Of a DNA stretch of 64,000 bases, positions 10,678 through 64,000 are shown piece after piece. The notes under the pieces were generated by a model. The model did not search any database, had not been told where the DNA came from, and saw nothing but the letters and a program-made list of their open reading frames with translations. Each line of letters opens with the position of its first letter. The stretch's first letter is position 1. The position numbers and the translations under genes were made by a program. The stretch is from Sphagnum magellanicum. Lineage: Eukaryota > Streptophyta > Sphagnopsida > Sphagnales > Sphagnaceae. The stretch spans positions 3,658,001-3,722,000 of the forward strand of contig CM038923.1 of NCBI GenBank assembly GCA_021904315.1, in the 5' to 3' direction.

Positions 10678-13359
10678 TCAGATCGATTTCTTACCCTTCA
10701 CATCATGATTAGCTTTGAACGTAGTTGCAGTGATTCCGATGCCCTCAGCAACACCTGCTTCCCCAACATTGCGGAGCATATCTTCCACCTCTCTAAATTT
10801 TGTGTCTACAAAATTTAGACTTTCTTGCAATGGTGGTACAGTCCAACTACTGCTTGCTTCTACTGGTTTTTTAGACTTCTCGACTCTGCTTCTTTGACGT
10901 AACCTACTTCTCTCACTTGGACCAGCTAGAGTACTTGAGGACTCAGCATCCCCTCCCAAGAAAGACTCTTGCTCCCATGATTCCTCAGCAGATTTATCTG
11001 AGACTGGAAAAGCCTGAGCTGTTGGAATTTCATCTGAGAAATTGACCCTGCGCTTGTGTTTAGCCCCCTTCCTTGACCCACTGTCAACAGCAGATGACCG
11101 CTCATGAACTTCTGTGTGCTCTCCACCAAAGCCTTCAGTGAGCCCTTGTAAAAGCCTTCTCGGCAATAAAACTTGGTGGCAACAGCAAAGGACAATCAAG
11201 ACTTCAACCATAAAGAGGCCTAAGAGACTCCACACATAAAATGTCCATCTCCACTTTCGAATGAAGTCTTTCATTGGTGACAGAACTGATATGATTTGTA
11301 GTTCGGCAGAGTAAAGTTCTGGTAATCCTTCCCCAGGGGAGAGGCCAGCCTTACACTCCAGTAGAATGCGAACAAAGACAGTTGGGACTGATGTGTCTTC
11401 ATGATTCTCTATGATGCGGATTGCAAGTTTCTGTGATTCTGATGACAGGCCCATCAAGAATGGGACACCCATGAGGAGGTTTTTGGCATACCGGATGGGA
11501 CTACTGTGGAATTTTAGCATGCATGGCCGGGTGGCTCGGGTAATCACTTGTCCTCTGATTGACAGCAACTCTGCACTGACCTGCAACACAGATAAACGAC
11601 ATCAGCCACAGGGTGACCTGAAGGACATACTTTGGGCTTAGAGAGATCTTCTAAGTGGTAAGTGAGAAAACAAACATTTCTGCTCTACAGTGACATAATG
11701 TGGATTGTTACCCAGTTTACACAGTAATTGGAGGCAGATACTAAACCACCTTGGTTGTCTTCAGAAAGGTGATTCAGCCAGCCTGCCCTCTGAATCCTCA
11801 CCAAATATCAGGGAAGGCTAATAATATCTAAATTTGTTTTGCTTCAAAAATCCTTTCATTCAAGGGGATATTTCTGCTGCCAAATTCTCAAAATCAAACT
11901 TCAATAGCCAGACAGACAATAGAAAGAAGCATGAAGAAACATGAGCCAGCTGTTGTAGAGAGAGGAAAACCTGAAAAATGCCAAGCTTGCGATTATGGTC
12001 AGACTCTGGAAGTGTCAAAAATACAGTTACATGAAACTTATGAGATTTCGGAATTGCACGAAAACTGTGAGCCTTCTCAGGTTTTTTCACTGCAAGCTCC
12101 TTCGCCTTGGCCAAAACCTTGGGAGGCAACAGAGGGACAACCGCAGTTGGATGTTCTCGTGTATAATCAAAGTGCAAAGTCTGATGAATCTCAATAGGGT
12201 CCTCAATAAAGCTCCGCACAAGGAAGACATCAAGAAAAAACGCAGGAATCAAGAGGAACCCTAGAATGAAACTCACATATATGGCAGCTAAGCACCCACA
12301 ACCACATCTCTTTGTAATGTGCTTAATTGTAGGCCCTGCATGTGCAACCCCCTCTGTGACCATTGGCCTGATCTGGCTTGTGAGTGCATACACATCAATG
12401 ACTGTATTAGTGGCTAAATTTGTAGCCTCAATCGATTTCTGGAGTGGAAAGACCAATACTGCATAGGTCAAACTACAAAGCCACAGTGCAAAATATACCG
12501 ATTGCACTATCAGCTTAATCTGAAAGCTTATGGCTTGGATTATGAAGTCTGCTGGCCATACAAGAAGCTGACTTGGAGATACACCAGGCTCAACAGCATC
12601 AATATCTCTGATTGGAAACTTATAGACCTCCCTTGTTGCTGATTCCTCAGTGTAATCCAAGCCACTTGTAGAATTTTGATCCAAATCCTGTAAATCCCTT
12701 AGCAGTTCCTCGTCTTCAGCCTCCATCCCTTCATGTCTGTGTTCTTTTTCTCTTAAGTTCAAATCTTCTTCTTCTTCCATTTCAGCTTTCTTTTGTCTCA
12801 TTGAGCCCAAATCTCTTTTCAGTTCTTCATCTAACCTAGATCCCATGCTGACATCCTCAAATCCACCAGTCAAAATAGGGTAAACTTCCACTTTTTCCCA
12901 GCTCTCATCAGAGATTACAGGATATTTGGTTGATTGCAAGCTGTCATCAAACAGGTCAGAATCCTCAAGCTCTGTTTCTACCTTGTCATTTTCACCAGCA
13001 TTTGAAGTTGCACTTGTTCCTTCTCTTCCTGTTCCAACGAGAACACTTGAGCTGGATGCAGAGATCGGTCGGAGATGTCTATTTGCTTCATCTCCTTCTT
13101 CCTCAACATCTGAGGGTGATGGCCACCCTGAACCTCTAGATGTTACCTCATCTTCAAAACTCTGAATTGAAGATTGCTCAACAGTACCATCACTGTTCTC
13201 CAGAGCTTCTGAAGAGGGAGATGGCTGCTGAAAGTCAGAAGAACTTTTCTCCTCACCCTCAGAGGAGGTGTTGCCTTCTTCAGATTTCAGTGAATCCTCA
13301 GCTTTTCCCATCATCTCTTGGTCAGGGGAAGTATCCATCCCAGATAATTCTGAGTGCAT
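10678..13359 (-). CDS. SEIPIN: Seipin (lipid-droplet biogenesis protein), SEIPIN2/3-like
   Basis: Seipin sits in the ER membrane and organises lipid-droplet formation at ER-droplet contacts. The exons are 11,971-13,359 and 10,678-11,580 (GT-AG, phase 0), giving 763 residues. Residues 1-250 are acidic and Ser/Glu-rich with no fold seen. A first hydrophobic region is at about 265-305 and a second at 354-382. The lumenal seipin core starts at about 385 and continues across the exon junction (IFQ then VSAELLSIRG), with the plant-type HPC-like RPCMLKFHSSPIRY motif. The last membrane helix is at about 574-598 (FYVWSLLGLFMVEVLIVL), followed by a charged tail of about 165 residues. The long N-terminal region and the two N-terminal hydrophobic segments fit the SEIPIN2/3 type rather than the short SEIPIN1 type. 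The tail is longer than I expect for the family. Confidence 0.93.
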
Positions 13360-35000: not shown

Positions 35001-37367
35001 GGAAGTTCAAACCTTTTGTTGTCATGTAAATTAGAACATTTTTCAGGACTTCATATATGGGTATTTTGAATTATTTGCAGCAATTGAGAATGCTAGAACT
35101 TATAAGGTGTAAAGCTATTGTTCTAGTTCTGGTTTGGCAGATTACGTCATTTTCTTGACCACATTATATGACATAATCGTCTATTGATGATCACACACTT
35201 GTAATAGTGACCAACAATTGTCTGTTGGAACATGAATTCTTTTCTAAATCATTGAATCTGCAACCCCAGACCTTAATATCATGGAATGGCCTCACCCTTG
35301 CCGATTATGTTGGGTGAGTCACCTAGCTTGCCCTAACAGTCTCACTGGGCAGGGGCTTGACCATTCTATAGTAGTAGATACATAAAAAGGCTAGCTCTGA
35401 TGGTAGTGATCAATGAAGGGAAAAAAGAAGGATTGGGGAGAAGGGGGAGGAGTGAGAAATATTACCAGGCCACCAGTATCGCAAGTGACAGCATGCTCAT
35501 CCCATGGCATGGGCATTCCATCATATCTGTTGTATAGACCACCAATCCCTTGACAGCTGCCGATGCGATGGTTGATGACTACATCTGCCATTGCCCGCAG
35601 ATTCCTTCGATGCATTGTCTGCAGCAAATTTCTCAGCTCCCCTTCACTACCATATGCTGTGTTCAATGAATAAAGATCTCTCGGAAGATATCCTGAACTC
35701 AGCAAAATAACACACACATTCCAATTGAAAAGTTACACAAAAAGTCTGAACAAAATTACTGTTGATTTGCTGCCACCAGTGCCATTACTGTTGGCCCCCC
35801 ACCCAGTATCTGTGGCCTCCTTAAAATCTTCCTCTTTGTGCAGGAGACCAAAATAAAATCTGCCAGCGCATCACCATATGCTGATGATGACTGAGACCTA
35901 CTAAGTAAAGCATGGGGAAAGGAATGATCAAGAATTGTGTGCAGACATCCATGATGGGTTACACAAAAATTGGCAAAAAGCTGTAAATTTGGAGTAAGAC
36001 AAAAACCTTGAGGGGCAAGAGAATCAAATGCAGGAGGAAGCCACATTGAGGTGAAACCCCATGCTGAAAGTTCAGAAACCTTGTCTTTCAGCCTATTCCA
36101 CCATGATTGCTGCTTATGTGATTCCCAATTAAAGCCCTGGACACCACATCCACCAAACCAACTATAATAAAAATGACATCAGACCCAGCAATTTTTCTCC
36201 TTTCAGACATCAGCCGGAAAACACTCATGATCCACTTGTGACATACCATCTAAATTTTTTTAGTGACAGTGAACTTGTTGAATTCATCATCAAGACCTGG
36301 ATATATAAATAAACTCATCAAGAACCCATTTTGCATCAGAAGAACAAGCGCAGAGGACGGAGGAACTTATTACCTGGAAAAAAATTTCTCTGCCATTACG
36401 AAGTATATCATCATTGCCTGTTAGATAAAATTAGCTCCACATTTTTAGTGGAGTGATGATGATGTGCACCACATTAACCATTCATTGAAGAGAAGGATAA
36501 GAGGATCGCAGAGAGCTTCTTCCTCAACACAAGTCCATGGTGTTAGAACGGGTGCAATGTCTTTCTTACCATTCAAGATTTCATTTTCTAATTGTCGTGT
36601 GTCCGTTTGTTCCACCATCTGAACAATAACACCAAAGGACAAAATCTGATCTTATTATTACCCGCATGATAAATAAATTTGCAACTGGAAAAATCAAAAT
36701 GATGCAGGAGAGTATTTTAATTACAAGGATGTATCTTGAGCACCCATGTTGGACTTTGTCTGCAATATTGTACCTGTAGCTCCTCATCATCAGGGAGAGA
36801 ACTTTGGTCCCCTACTGACTCAAGCTTGTAGTGAGAAGGGTTTTTGGGTCTAGTTTTCTGAGCTCCATCTAGCTGCTGAAATATATACAAACCCTAAGTT
36901 TATATTAGCTGTTTTCTCAACTAATTAATAAGGATACATAGATCAGGTGAGAAAGTGGTTAGTCTTCAAGAAATAGCTGAAACATTTTTTAAAAAAATTT
37001 AATGACAGCAAAAGAAAATTGAGCAAAAATTAGAACTCCTAGCAAATTGATGCCAAAGTTCAACAAAAAGATCCTTACTGCTTCCTGTATGTCATCCATC
37101 AGCTGCTCTTTGGAAATTGGGAAGTAAAATTAGGAATTCTCAAACCCGCTGCTGCATCACAATGTAGACTTCTTTCTCTCTCTCTCTCTGTATGTTGTGT
37201 AAGAACTACACCCAGAGTTAGTCAGACTTTGTGTGTGTGTGTGCGTGTCTCTGTGAAACTTGATCATCATCTGCGTCAAATTGAGCACCACCCACTTTGT
37301 TGTTGTTGTTGTTGCTTTTTTCCCTTTTGACATTCAATTGAAGTTCCTGACAAATGCTCAACATCAT
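32029..37367 (-). CDS. AMY: Alpha-amylase (glycoside hydrolase family 13), 14 exons, 503 residues
   Basis: It hydrolyses internal alpha-1,4 bonds of starch. The exons, 5' to 3', are 37,367-37,260, 37,105-37,079, 36,872-36,774, 36,618-36,570, 36,417-36,374, 36,136-36,007, 35,692-35,466, 34,829-34,684, 34,380-34,262, 33,914-33,826, 33,647-33,522, 33,380-33,345, 32,708-32,610 and 32,241-32,029. All are GT-AG, phases match throughout, and the total divides evenly. The GH13 barrel starts at about residue 103 (EIFFQGFNWES). DVVINH is at about 188. The catalytic acids are D273 (FRFDFAKG), E298 (IGEYWD) and D383 (FVDNHD). A C-terminal beta domain ends with YAIWQK. The RPPGV and NHDTGSTQ blocks are plant/algal AMY3-like. 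No starch-binding CBM45 and no clear plastid transit peptide precede the barrel, so a cytosolic form is possible. The first two exons are the weakest part, and further 5' exons may exist. Confidence 0.9.
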
Positions 37368-40324: not shown

Positions 40325-43030
40325 TCATACGTAAGCCTCCGAGTGCTTATAGAATCTTATTAGTGAGTGGGAAGGGAAGTGGATAGATGAAGCACTTGAG
40401 AAAACAATGGATGCAATAGAAAGTAACAACACCACATTGAGGAAGGCAAGTAGGTTATGGAGCATACCTTTAAGCTCTTTATGTAACCATTTAAATGGTA
40501 AAACATGAATGAAAAAGGTTAGGTTAAAATGAGTACTAATAATAAAAAAAGATGTTGCAGTACTTACTTGGATTTTGGCTATGCAAAAAGTAGGTTTATC
40601 AATTAACATACAACAACTAAATCTAAAGGTAATAGAAATCACCAAACCAAACCAACACCATTTCAAAATGAGGTTCCATAATATAGTTGGTGGTATTGTT
40701 TTAAATGGCGTCATCTAAATATGTCTATTCGTCAAGCAAAAGGATTGAAGGTGTGTAAAGCATAAGGATTAATTCAACAATCTTGCCAAACATTTTATAA
40801 CAATTTGCAACTTTTATACAACAAAAAAATTACCCAACATATCACACATGGAATAATGATGAAAATAAAATTCAAGCAAGCAAACAAGTAAGGGCGAAAA
40901 TGTTAGCCAAAAGGTGGTTCATAACAAGTCTATAGCACCATTTGAAAATCTAAGGTTATGCACCCCCAAGCTCCTTAATGGACTCAAATGTGAATATAAA
41001 CTGAAAACAACGGAAAAGTAAGGAGTTGGGGCACGTTCCCTGACTCGCAACACTTTGAGCGGTAGAGGGGCATGCTGGAGCTCCAGGATGGGATTAGGAA
41101 GAGTGATAAGCATCAAGTACTCACACGGACCTGCACAAAACCAACACAAGGTTAGTGCATAATTGGAGCACTTTTGGTGCTAGGACAAGCCATGGGCAAA
41201 TTCAGACTCACAAGACTCACCACGGCCCAAACTTGGGGAAAACCATCACTTTCCCCCTTATAGTATACTTTATGCCTCTCCACAAGACTCACATCCAAAT
41301 GGCTTTTTGTCTTAGGACTCCCAAATGGGAGTCCCGAAATTACCAAAGTTGAAACTCCCGCGACTTTGGGACCCCATAACTTTGTGTGCAGACCTCTGAT
41401 TAAGATGAGGTCTATAACAAAGTTGTAGCCCTCGTTGAAATCTTCCCAATGATATTTTTCACACCACCTACATGCAAGGAAATCAGGGCGATTCCTGACT
41501 TTTAGTGGTCGAGAGTCAAACTGCCAATTTGACTCTCGGCCCTTCTTTTGGTCATAACTTGTGTTTAGATGTCCAAATGGGTCATGTGAGCCCATTTTAG
41601 ACATCTATGTTTCAAGATATTTCCAATGGTATGAAAAACTCTTCAAGCCATTGGGTTTTGACCCTTGCAATCACCCTTTGAACATTTGGGAGTCCACTGC
41701 AACTCCAACCCCCAACATGGGAGTTCACGTGGGAGTGTGAGGGTTCTTTCCTTCACATTTTTTTGCACTTCTGGGGGCATGAGAATGTGACTCCCAAGCT
41801 TAGTCTTGGCCCGCACCTTTGCAAGCCCTTTGCCTTGGTCACGAGCCCAAGGCTAAGGTTGCGACATAAAGAATGGCTCACTATGAATTTTGTAATTAAT
41901 GTGCAAGAGGATTTCTACTAACATTTTCTATCTTTAAGGGTGGAAGGCTGCGCAAAAATTACATCAAAAACTATAAACCAAGCACATGTATGGCAATGTA
42001 AAAAAAGGCTTGGATGACAACAATTTTATTCAAAAAGTTCTTAAGTATTCTCAAGAGATTAATTCCTAGTGGGATCTCTTTAACCAACTGTCACCCATTA
42101 ATTCTAGATGGGCATGGATCACATGTTATTCTACAAACAATAAAACAAGCCCATCAATTTGGTTCAAACATGGTTATTTTACCATCATATATTTCACATG
42201 TTTTACAACCCTTGGATGTTTCATGCTTCAAATCATTCAAAACTACATTCGAAAAGGAGAAAGATGGGGCCATGGTAAAAAATAATTATAATGCACCAAA
42301 CAATCTCACATTGGCTAGCTGAGTAAATAAGGTGCTAGACCAAGGATTATCAAAATAAAAATTAGATCTGGGTTTAAAGTTATAGGGATTTAACCATTAA
42401 ATCCAAAAGTTATGGATGAAAAAATCAACCATGTAAAAGTGTACATGGCACAACCTATAAACATGGAGGAAGTAAAACAATATAATTCAAAATTTGAAAG
42501 AAAAAAAAATCAATAATGGGGTGAAAAATTAATAGCAAAAGAATTCCTCAACATATCAATTACATTTGAGAATACAAACACAATTAATGAATAAGATAAA
42601 AAAAGTTTTGTTATTATGTGCACATGCCAGAAACCCTATTACCACACAAGTGGAAGGACCGGCAAACATTATTACACTAGTAGTAGACCTAGAAGACCTT
42701 TTAATGCAAAAAAAAGGAGAAAAACAAAGTTCTTTAGGTTCAACACTCTTTGGCCATGTCCCTTCACAAGTTGTTGCCACCCCATTTACTTGTAAAACAA
42801 ATGAAAGAAAAATCCAACTAATAGTTGATTATAACATGTCCCATGTGGTCACTTTTGAAGAGTATTTAAACATGATGTGATAAAAAACAATGGCCAAGGC
42901 AACAACAAATGAAATTTAAAATGTAAATGAAAGGAAAAGGAAAAGAGGGGGTCCAAAAGGCTAGTTGAAATGTGGGTGCCACAAATAAGAGCCATAATAA
43001 GTGTAATGATTCCTTACATTAATACAAAAT
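40325..43030 (+). pseudogene. Pogo-like (DDE_1) transposase gene, decayed and split by a solo LTR
   Basis: The psq-type helix-turn-helix lies at about 40,390-40,500 (NNTTLRKASRLWSIPLSSL). A first catalytic-aspartate block with WNNDEN (usually WNTDET) is near 40,865. The frame is cut near 40,955 by a solo LTR and resumes at 41,872. The second aspartate is in LDGHGSHV near 42,105 and the third in LQPLDVSCFK near 42,205. The C-terminus trails off with GFKVIGIWPLNP-like text to about 43,030. Both halves contain stops and frame changes. The HTH plus DDE_1 architecture is that of pogo/Tigger/Jerky-type transposases. No terminal inverted repeats were recognised. Confidence 0.85.
40956..41866 (-). 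mobile_element. Solo LTR (family A) inside the pogo-like transposase
   Basis: About 910 bases. On the minus strand it begins TGTCGCAACC and shares most of its length with the repeat at 45,145-45,949. It interrupts the transposase exactly where the coding match stops and resumes. The flanks TAAGG (40,951-40,955) and TAAAG (41,867-41,871) look like a 5-bp target duplication with one change. No internal retrotransposon sequence is attached, so it is a solo LTR. It lacks coding sequence. Confidence 0.8.
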
Positions 43031-61000: not shown

Positions 61001-61379
61001 ACCATCAATTAAAAACACTACTAACCTAACATAGAATATTTTGAAAACAAATCCTATTGGACATGGAATATGTCTCATAGGTTACAAGTTTGATTTTTAA
61101 AGATTTCAATGGATATCACTATTTATTTATTTCCCAAAAAAAACCTTTTAAGAATTATTTGATGTTGAACATCAATTGCAAGTACAATATCAATTGGCAA
61201 ATTGATGGTGGTTGCATTTGGTCATGAAATTAATTAATTACAAATCCATTGAAAAATGTGTGTGCACATCACCCATTCCCTATTTATTCTTGGTCTTGAA
61301 ACCCACTTTTGATACCTAGCTTCAAACAATAATATCTGTAACTTGATAAATTTTGCAGAATACCAAGGACCAAGGCAAT

Positions 61380-61810
61380 TTGAATTCAAGTCTTTCTTGG
61401 AGTAAGAATATATACATTGTAAACCTTTATAGCATTAATGTGTTTTACTTTTCACAATGAAAAACCCATTGAAAGTACACTCAACCAAGATAACTTGTAT
61501 TTAACAATTGCAAGTAAGATCATGGTTGATCTCAACACACCTGGAAAGAAATTAAGCCTATGAGGTAAATCTCACCCTGGAGTTGAGATTTCAATATTAT
61601 GAAATTTGAAAACAAATCATTTTTGGAGTAAGAAATATAAAGCATACTTTCTGAACTTTTCTAGCATAAATATGTTTTTTCATAAAATGAAAAACCCATT
61701 AAAAATACACTCAACCATGCTATCTTGTATCTACTAATTAGAAAGATGAAATTCATGATTGATCTCAACAAACATGAAAAGAGATTAAATCAACTAGGTA
61801 CCTCTTGCCC
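61380..61810. repeat. Direct duplication of about 200 bases, two copies
   Basis: Copies at about 61,380-61,570 and 61,605-61,810 share GGAGTAAGAA, then TAGCATTAATGTGTTTT versus TAGCATAAATATGTTTT, then ATGAAAAACCCATT, ACACTCAACCA, CTTGTAT and TTGATCTCAACA in the same order. They are spaced by about 235 bases. Confidence 0.85.
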
Positions 61811-62148
61811 TAGTTCACCTTTTCTCCACAATTGTCAAGGATCATGAGCTGTGTACTTTACCATGCTTTCTATGTAAAACATTGTACACTTTTCTTTCAA
61901 ACTATCTTACAAGAAATTTAAATGTTTTAAAGTCCTTGTAAGATAGCTATGCATAATTCGCAGATGACAGTTGTAAGTCTAGTACATGAGGATGATCATT
62001 GCAATTCGGATTTGTGCATTACTTCTATGTACATCATGCATCTAATCACAAGACTTTGCAATATCACCCTTCTGCCATATCATTGTTAGACTACTGTTGT
62101 TCTTGGCCTTCTAAGTAGAATTGCTTGGATTGATGAGTGATCGATATT

Positions 62149-63570
62149 TTAGTTGCCATAGGCTGCCCTGAAATAGTAGCCTGCAACTGGGATGCCTAGT
62201 TTGTAGTTCTTCACAAAGTCTGCCAACGAAAAGGACACCCGACTTGGAGGAACTTCCATCACCTTGTCAGATAGCCCCCAAGACTCCTCCTGGCACACAT
62301 ATAGTCATCAAAGTTCAAACTCTTAAATGAGAATTTCAATCGTAATAGACAACTTCAATATTTTCGAAGGTATGCCTAAACTCCATGAGAACAACCCAAA
62401 AAATACTCTAGATGTAATTTGAACATTCTAGTTGCTTGAGTAGTTTTTTTAATAACAACTGACTTCTTTATGTTTTGGACTATCATAATATGCAAAACTA
62501 TTGTGAAAATTTGTCTTAATATGGACATGGTTTGAATTTCAAAAACACGACATCCAAGAAACAAACAACATTTGTAAGAACATAAAGGGGTCCCTTAGTG
62601 GTGTGAAAGCAAAGCCTTGGCCCCCAGTTGTGTGCTTCCACCTAAGATCTATGTGCTTGACGTGAAGGCAGGAAATATGAGAGCAAGCATTCATGAGCTA
62701 TTTGGTTTCAGGAGTGACAAAATTTGACATTAAAAACTGCTACAGATAATGTCTGAAAAGCTGTGCAAGGACACACCACTAGCTAACTGACAGCTGGGAT
62801 GATCATACATGTATGTACCTGTTTAAACAGCAGGAGAACATATCGATGCAGACCTTCAGGTGGGGCAGGTCCCATGTATGGAATTTTCTCTTGTCCAGTT
62901 TCCCATATTTCTGCAAGCATATATAAGCTCAAGATGTCAAAGACAGTTTCACATAATTTCACATGTTAAATTGTGCATATATACATTTCTAAGGGAATGA
63001 AGCCTTGAGAACCAGCACAGCAGCCAGAGGCATCTAGCTGCAATGGATGGGTACTTGACCTTGAGAAGCAGTTGTGGAGCCAGGGATATCGGTGACAAGC
63101 CAGTGAAGGATGTTACGGAGGACGGGATTGGAAGGGCTGGGTGCATCCGGGTCTACCATCGCCAATGTGTACTTGTCAGCATCTCCCCCAAAGCCACTGC
63201 CATAGAACTGCACACTGGGCTTGTTCTGAGTTTGAACCAACCGAATCTGCACACCGATAGGCAGCTCCACATCACCGTACAACACTCTCATGTCCAATAC
63301 ATTGTCAGGAAGTGCTGGCACGACCTCTGGCACCAAGTTCCCAGCTTTCAGCTGGGACAGTATTTGCTGTGACAAAGTACCACTAGCAACAGCAGCTGCT
63401 GCACCATCGGCTGCAACCATCTCATGACTAGAGCTTTGAAAATTCTCCTCTGCAGCTGCTGCATCATGGTGATCAACAGCAATGCATCTGCCTAACTTAC
63501 TTACATGCAGTAAGCTCAAAACAAACGTAATCACAACTGTTAAACTCCGCAGAGTTACTACTACACCCAT
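62149..63570 (-). CDS. MFT: MFT-like PEBP (phosphatidylethanolamine-binding) protein with N-terminal signal sequence
   Basis: Exons 63,570-63,060, 62,910-62,819 and 62,289-62,149 (GT-AG, phases match) give 247 residues. Residues 1-30 are strongly hydrophobic after a short basic start (TLRSLTVVITFVLSLL), like a secretory signal peptide or anchor. Residues 31-75 are Ala/Asp/Glu-rich. The PEBP fold then starts at about 78. The ligand-pocket motifs are DPDAPSPSNP (140-149) and GLHRY (190-194). The downstream PYMGPAPPEG and PPSRVSF segments resemble MFT rather than FT or TFL1. The residue at the FT-Tyr85/TFL1-His88 site appears to be Ile (LRNILHW). FT, TFL1 and MFT are known as cytosolic and nuclear regulators, so a signal sequence is unexpected. 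It acts as a lipid-binding or signalling protein by family; the secretory route is inference. Confidence 0.9.
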
Positions 63571-64000
63571 CGATGACAGCTAGCTAATTCTTGCAGCTCA
63601 GTGACTATTGGTACCTATCAGATCATGCACAATCACTTCTTACGATCTGCAAACCAAGCAAGCCTAGTGGTTGTTCCTGGCAGTAGCAAGAGTAACAAGC
63701 TCGAGGAGGCTAATGGGTCGAAGCTCAGGGGGGCTTATGGGTGCTCACACTAGCAACTACCGTTTGTGTGTTCAAAGAGGTTCTGCACTAGTCCTCAAAT
63801 AAGTATGTTTTCTGTGGGCATCTATTTAATACTGTGGCAGGACCCAGAGACACCTGCTGCAGCATGCATTCAAGTGGCTTGTGCTTCTCTGCCTGCCATT
63901 CACTCATTCATTGTCTGATCTGATGGTTTTAAGTAATTGAATCAGGAAAAAGTTTGGTTGGTGAAAGGTTCTTGTTTTGTCAGTGGGGTGGGTGAAGAAG
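63571..64000 (-). promoter_or_regulatory. PEBP gene upstream region with a TATA-like box
   Basis: On the minus strand TATTAAATAG lies at about 63,822-63,831, some 250 bases before the start codon. It is the best TATA candidate in the upstream 430 bases. The rest shows no other gene within the window. Confidence 0.35.

Follow-up and report, generated by a model that had tools for sequence, protein, structure and literature searches.

Well-studied plant PEBPs are described, in passages of PMC10610496, as working with 14-3-3 and bZIP partners in the cytosol and nucleus. A PEBP gene near the end of the window (by which we mean the whole 64-kb stretch of DNA analysed) appears to encode a product that begins with a hydrophobic leader and raises the question of whether a plant member of this family could instead enter the secretory pathway. 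Our best reading, drawn from sequence and moderately supported, is that the gene is a diverged plant PEBP and that the protein made from it would carry an N-terminal ER signal peptide.

The gene occupies positions 63570 to 62149 of the minus strand, and its structure can be read from the DNA: in our DNA-based model three exons join to encode 247 residues. Exon 1 (63060 to 63570, 511 nt) supplies the leader, a linker and the first two-thirds of the PEBP fold; exon 2 (62819 to 62910, 92 nt) opens with a six-residue insert, EIWETG, and carries the pocket motif GLHRY; and exon 3 (62149 to 62289, 141 nt including the stop codon) encodes PPSR...GIPVAGYYFRAAYGN. Joining the exons confirmed that 63480 to 63570 holds codons 1–30 of a 247-residue product, as the first-pass annotation had it. 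The product matches the Pfam PBP profile (PF01161) with E = 3.3e-17 and 63.5 bits against a cut-off of 24. It also retains the pocket motifs DPDAPS, LHW and GLHR (DPDAP at residue 140, GLHR at 190), and the profile match together with the DPDxP and GxHR motifs identifies it as a PEBP. Its closest solved structures are FT (2.4e-29), Hd3a (2.3e-28), Drosophila CG7054 (2.8e-26) and TFL1 (3.7e-24); since the matches to all four begin at query residues 69–80, these proteins have no counterpart to the stretch that precedes residue 69 or so. No second PEBP copy was found in the 64-kb window, where the search returned these three exons and two matches with E values of 1.6 and 5.8.

Plant PEBP genes of eggplant and Arabidopsis have four exons, of which exons 2 and 3 measure 62 and 41 bp, according to the available part of PMC10156061, and the pear genes share this four-exon layout and these exon lengths in that of PMC7151754. 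The present gene, with three exons in the DNA-based model, departs from this layout of FT, TFL1 and MFT: it lacks plant PEBP introns 1 and 2, and the sequence that forms the final exon in angiosperm FT and TFL1 genes is split here by an extra phase-0 intron after FKQ (62290 to 62818, minus strand, 529 nt). If exon 1 of Arabidopsis FT is taken to be 201 bp, the FT exon lengths put intron 3 in phase 1 and, with the D of DIP as residue 1, behind residue 10 (DIPATTGTTF/G). The first intron here (62911 to 63059, minus strand, 149 nt) is likewise in phase 1 and at an equal distance from DIP (DIPGSTTASQ/E), and from this equality of position and phase we take it to be plant PEBP intron 3, shared by this gene, despite the weak score (−1.37 bits) of the phase-1 donor, CAAG/GTCAAG, at which exon 1 ends. 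The insert EIWETG (62894 to 62910) directly follows the shared intron and may reflect a shifted acceptor.

With FT, Hd3a and TFL1 the gene thus has in common the PEBP fold, the DPDxP, LHW and GxHR motifs and the position and phase of intron 3, whereas the leader, the linker, the extra intron and EIWETG are found only here and introns 1 and 2 only there. Identity over the fold is highest to AtMFT (43%, the best of seven references; the identities and the tree use a sequence that we take to be that of AtMFT), followed by FT (41%), Hd3a (40%), CG7054 and TFL1 (37% each), 1a44, which we take to be bovine PEBP (34%), and Tm16 (5tvd, 33%). The likeness to MFT extends to the PPSR motif and to HRY in the pocket motif. 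In a tree of the query and the seven references (FT, Hd3a, TFL1, MFT, CG7054, Tm16 and 1a44), the four plant references cluster without the query in 94 of 100 bootstraps, whose full number also supports a cluster of CG7054, Tm16 and 1a44. The query branch measures 0.86 substitutions per site, which makes long-branch attraction a real risk. Placement as sister to MFT received AU p values of 0.027 (full, LG), 0.043 (trimmed, LG), 0.099 (trimmed, WAG) and 0.34 (trimmed, LG+C20), and placement as sister to FT/TFL1 was rejected in no run (p = 0.091, 0.122, 0.112 and 0.407). Because under the site-heterogeneous LG+C20 model the AU test rejects none of the six topologies, we refrain from proposing a new clade.

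According to the available part of PMC8408984, Trp84 is common to MFT and the PFT proteins of ferns. The residue at that position here is Ile154, within RNILHW, so the product lacks the tryptophan of MFT and PFT. The first-pass description of the protein as MFT-like is doubtful on this ground and because the best tree separates it from MFT, outside the FT/TFL1/MFT cluster, although LG+C20 allows the MFT placement. Ile stands at the position that we take to be Tyr85 of FT. At the positions presumed to be the 14-3-3 contacts of Hd3a (R64, P96, F103 and R132), P96 is kept here and R64, F103 and R132 are not, in an alignment that is gapped nearby; the lost contacts are weakly consistent with a protein that would act outside the florigen complex, and the MFT sequence used also differs at these positions. 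Nine of ten Ceratopteris FT genes fall in subfamilies absent from flowering plants, as stated in the accessible portions of PMC8408984 and PMC9477723, which make no mention of a signal peptide in the fern PFT or FT subfamilies. These fern proteins are divergent PEBPs too, with PFT having Trp84 against Ile here, and at a guess the present gene may belong to a divergent fern-type PEBP group. A scan of a viral contig collection for relatives gave three pattern matches, none of them confirmed.

The predicted signal peptide comprises residues 1–31 (63478 to 63570, minus strand), and its composition is plain from the DNA. The hydrophobic core, or h-region, LTVVITFVLSLLHV, spans residues 10–23 with a mean Kyte-Doolittle value of 2.42 (2.74 over residues 10–21) and is followed by SKLGRCIA up to residue 31, which bears out the hydrophobic segment reported earlier. 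The short basic start described with it amounts to one arginine, R8, ahead of the core, with K25 and R28 coming after; the first 32 residues hold no D or E. With a matrix of the von Heijne type, the best physically sensible cleavage falls after Ala31 (CIA31/V32) at 3.5, a borderline score at the threshold. Cleavage after Leu26 scored slightly higher (3.61), at an unlikely site. Residues 32–69 (63364 to 63477, minus strand) form the linker, which is Ala-rich as first proposed (11 of 38 residues) and, rather than a simple Ala/Asp tract, acidic with three D and three E along with three His and five Ser. A single-sequence AlphaFold run on exon 1 alone gave a poor model (mean pLDDT 38), in which residues 2–25 are a helix modelled more confidently than any other part of the chain (block values of 59 and 57) and almost all of residues 26–56 are unstructured.

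The leader was set against chance by searching ATG-initiated ORFs of at least 50 aa for a 13-residue window this hydrophobic within their first 40 residues. The hydrophobicity of the core was reached by 23 of 2135 random ORFs from a Markov model of local composition and 24 of 1108 of window composition (about 1–2%), and by 11 of the 131 ORF starts of the window itself, the present gene counted. The cleavage score alone was reached by 589 of 2135 and 154 of 1108 random ORFs and by 29 of 131 window ORFs; being so common by chance, it is not discriminating by itself. Both properties were reached jointly by 14 of 2135 and 7 of 1108 random ORFs and by 4 of 131 window ORFs. A phase-specific coding model, with the seipin ORFs of the window and codons 81–247 of the PEBP gene as its training set, gave codons 1–50 a score of +7.0 nats per 100 nt in frame 0 and between −0.6 and −5.4 in the other five frames. 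Among 1339 open frames of 150 nt sampled from 24–60 kb, 1.8% attain this score, which is close to the 8.3 of codons 81–170, part of the training set. Codons 1–31 by themselves reach just +1.5 nats per 100 nt, yet this is the best of six frames, and their GC (0.40) is closer to that of the introns than to that of the remaining exon sequence. The leader is probably translated, though not beyond doubt. The earlier proposal of a signal-like leader in a plant-type PEBP gene draws support from composition, from frame-specific coding and from an in-frame stop upstream.

That stop, a TAG, lies four codons before the ATG at 63570, which is the first of its frame and, with T at −3, lies in a weak context. 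The next in-frame ATG, Met51 (63418 to 63420, minus strand; GAG ATG G), has the better context, with G at −3 and at +4. Were translation to begin there, or transcription to begin internally, the leader would be untranslated or marginal and the product a 197-residue cytosolic or nuclear PEBP like FT and MFT, an outcome we consider unlikely. It would leave 28 residues before the first FT-aligned position, against 16 in the 1wkp chain, and would suit both the little coding signal in codons 1–31 and the share of window ORF starts that are equally hydrophobic. The coding signal of codons 1–50, present in this frame only, speaks against it, as do five out-of-frame ATGs between ATG1 and Met51 (63506, 63487, 63467, 63464 and 63425), one of them opening an overlapping 39-aa ORF with A at −3, which would make scanning from a long 5' leader inefficient. 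Further upstream there is a TATA-like motif at 63831, with two ATGs between it and ATG1 (63821, eight codons; 63626, two codons); transcription starting about 30 nt downstream of the motif would leave 63626 as the sole upstream ATG. The 14-residue core bears on two other destinations. An uncleaved signal anchor tethering the PEBP domain to a membrane would accommodate the borderline cleavage site and the lysine and arginine after the core, but the core is short for it and the best 19-residue window has an insertion energy near zero (+0.29 in sum, on a scale used without position weights), and we regard this arrangement as quite improbable. Very improbable, in our estimation, is a leader that targets mitochondria or plastids: the lack of acidic residues up to position 32, the presence of three basic ones and several Ser/Thr would be in keeping with it, whereas the long uncharged hydrophobic run would not, nor, taken by itself, would a top 18-residue Kyte-Doolittle moment of 1.16 in the first 40 residues.

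A different possibility is that the Ala-rich linker is an intron, perhaps a facultative one, from 63504 to 63367 (minus strand, 138 nt, phase 0), whose removal would take out residues 23–68 and leave a 201-residue isoform that retains residues 1–22, with the leader abutting the fold. On generic splice-site matrices, 63504 (CAT/GTAAGTAA, 5.12 bits), inside exon 1, is the strongest donor of 62140–64000 and outscores the gene model's own donors (2.35 and −1.37 bits); the top acceptor within 63504–63300, at 63366 (1.4 bits), is in phase with it, and the length is close to that of the 149-nt intron. The GC of the stretch (0.478), however, lies within the range of the remaining exon sequence (0.45–0.53 across exons 2 and 3 and the other parts of exon 1) and above that of the introns (0.36–0.40). 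The stretch also has no stop in frame, for which the probability is 0.067 in sequence composed like the introns of this gene, and the in-frame coding score of the linker, 13.1 nats per 100 nt, is the top of six frames and the highest among the segments of exon 1. From composition and coding score we argue that the linker is exon, with alternative splicing possible, and its being an intron appears somewhat unlikely. Use of donor 63504 in phase would keep residues 1–22, and with them the hydrophobic start, on the protein, so such splicing would be compatible with ER targeting, but the Ala31 cleavage site would be lost.

For an ER signal peptide, then, speak a core of signal-peptide size rather than of a full transmembrane span, the first in-frame ATG with a frame-0 coding signal, the rarity of the core and the lack of acidic residues in residues 1–32. 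The PEBP matches and the absence of cysteine from the putative mature part (C29 is the sole Cys) are also in its favour, as is the retention of residues 1–22 should the internal donor be used in phase. Against it count a threshold-level cleavage score that chance often matches, a c-region containing K25 and R28, the low score and intron-like GC of codons 1–31, the 11 of 131 window starts as hydrophobic, an ATG1 context weaker than that of Met51, and the lack of any N-glycosylation sequon in the product.

Under the signal-peptide reading, for which we infer transcription, targeting, cleavage, destination and ligand alike, the signal recognition particle would bind residues 1–31, and the chain would pass into the ER lumen. 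Cleavage after Ala31 would release an acidic protein of 216 residues (23.4 kDa, pI about 4.8), in which the linker, Ala-rich and flexible, would be joined to a PEBP domain whose anion pocket is intact. The C-terminal end has no H/KDEL, and the default route would lead to the apoplast (or the vacuole), where the mature protein might have the head groups of phospholipids, or anionic ligands of another kind, as its targets.

Secretory PEBPs are described elsewhere: animal PEBP4, the nematode Ov-16/TES-26 kin and bacterial YbcL have a signal peptide or are found in secretions, in the parts of PMC9369291, PMC2706953 and PMC8793217 at hand. They resemble the proposed protein in being secretory PEBPs and differ in being animal or bacterial rather than plant proteins. 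No plant PEBP with a signal peptide appeared among the titles, abstract openings and passages listed for the literature on secreted plant and fern PEBPs. General predictors placed 34.9% of the set of a wheat paper as extracellular or periplasmic, and of 29 B. napus (oilseed rape) PEBPs one was predicted extracellular and five periplasmic; the passages available from these reports make no mention of a signal peptide, and we give the predictions little weight against novelty. For the Ceratopteris proteome, 3,841 predicted signal peptides are reported. In its fertile leaf and sporangia this fern expresses several of the fern-specific PEBP subfamilies.

If a plant PEBP is indeed translocated, the 14-3-3/bZIP route would be closed to it, and lipids, small molecules or non-cytosolic receptors would become its targets. 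Plants, like animals, nematodes and bacteria, would then use the PEBP fold outside the cytosol, and the protein would be a test case for PEBPs as primarily ligand-binding proteins. A bolder and decidedly unlikely proposal is that a plant lineage, possibly with a fern-specific PEBP subfamily, gave rise to a secreted florigen-family branch outside FT/TFL1/MFT for apoplastic lipid binding or signalling, for example around developing spores. With the DNA of one gene as its basis, the locus is a good candidate for a PEBP gene with a secretory-type leader rather than an established case.

The remainder of the window was surveyed with Pfam on 10 of its 27 listed ORFs of at least 100 aa, of which four matched, and with Rfam (gathering threshold) and tRNA scans, which gave no matches in it. 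The Pfam matches reveal a seipin gene with two long ORFs (10678 to 13359, minus strand), an alpha-amylase exon (35391 to 35717, minus strand) and a DDE_1 transposase fragment (42014 to 42322, plus strand). Taken with the shared PEBP intron, these matches are in keeping with a plant nuclear genome. Downstream of the PEBP gene, at 61377 to 61811, lies a diverged tandem repeat with a spacing of about 226–233 nt.
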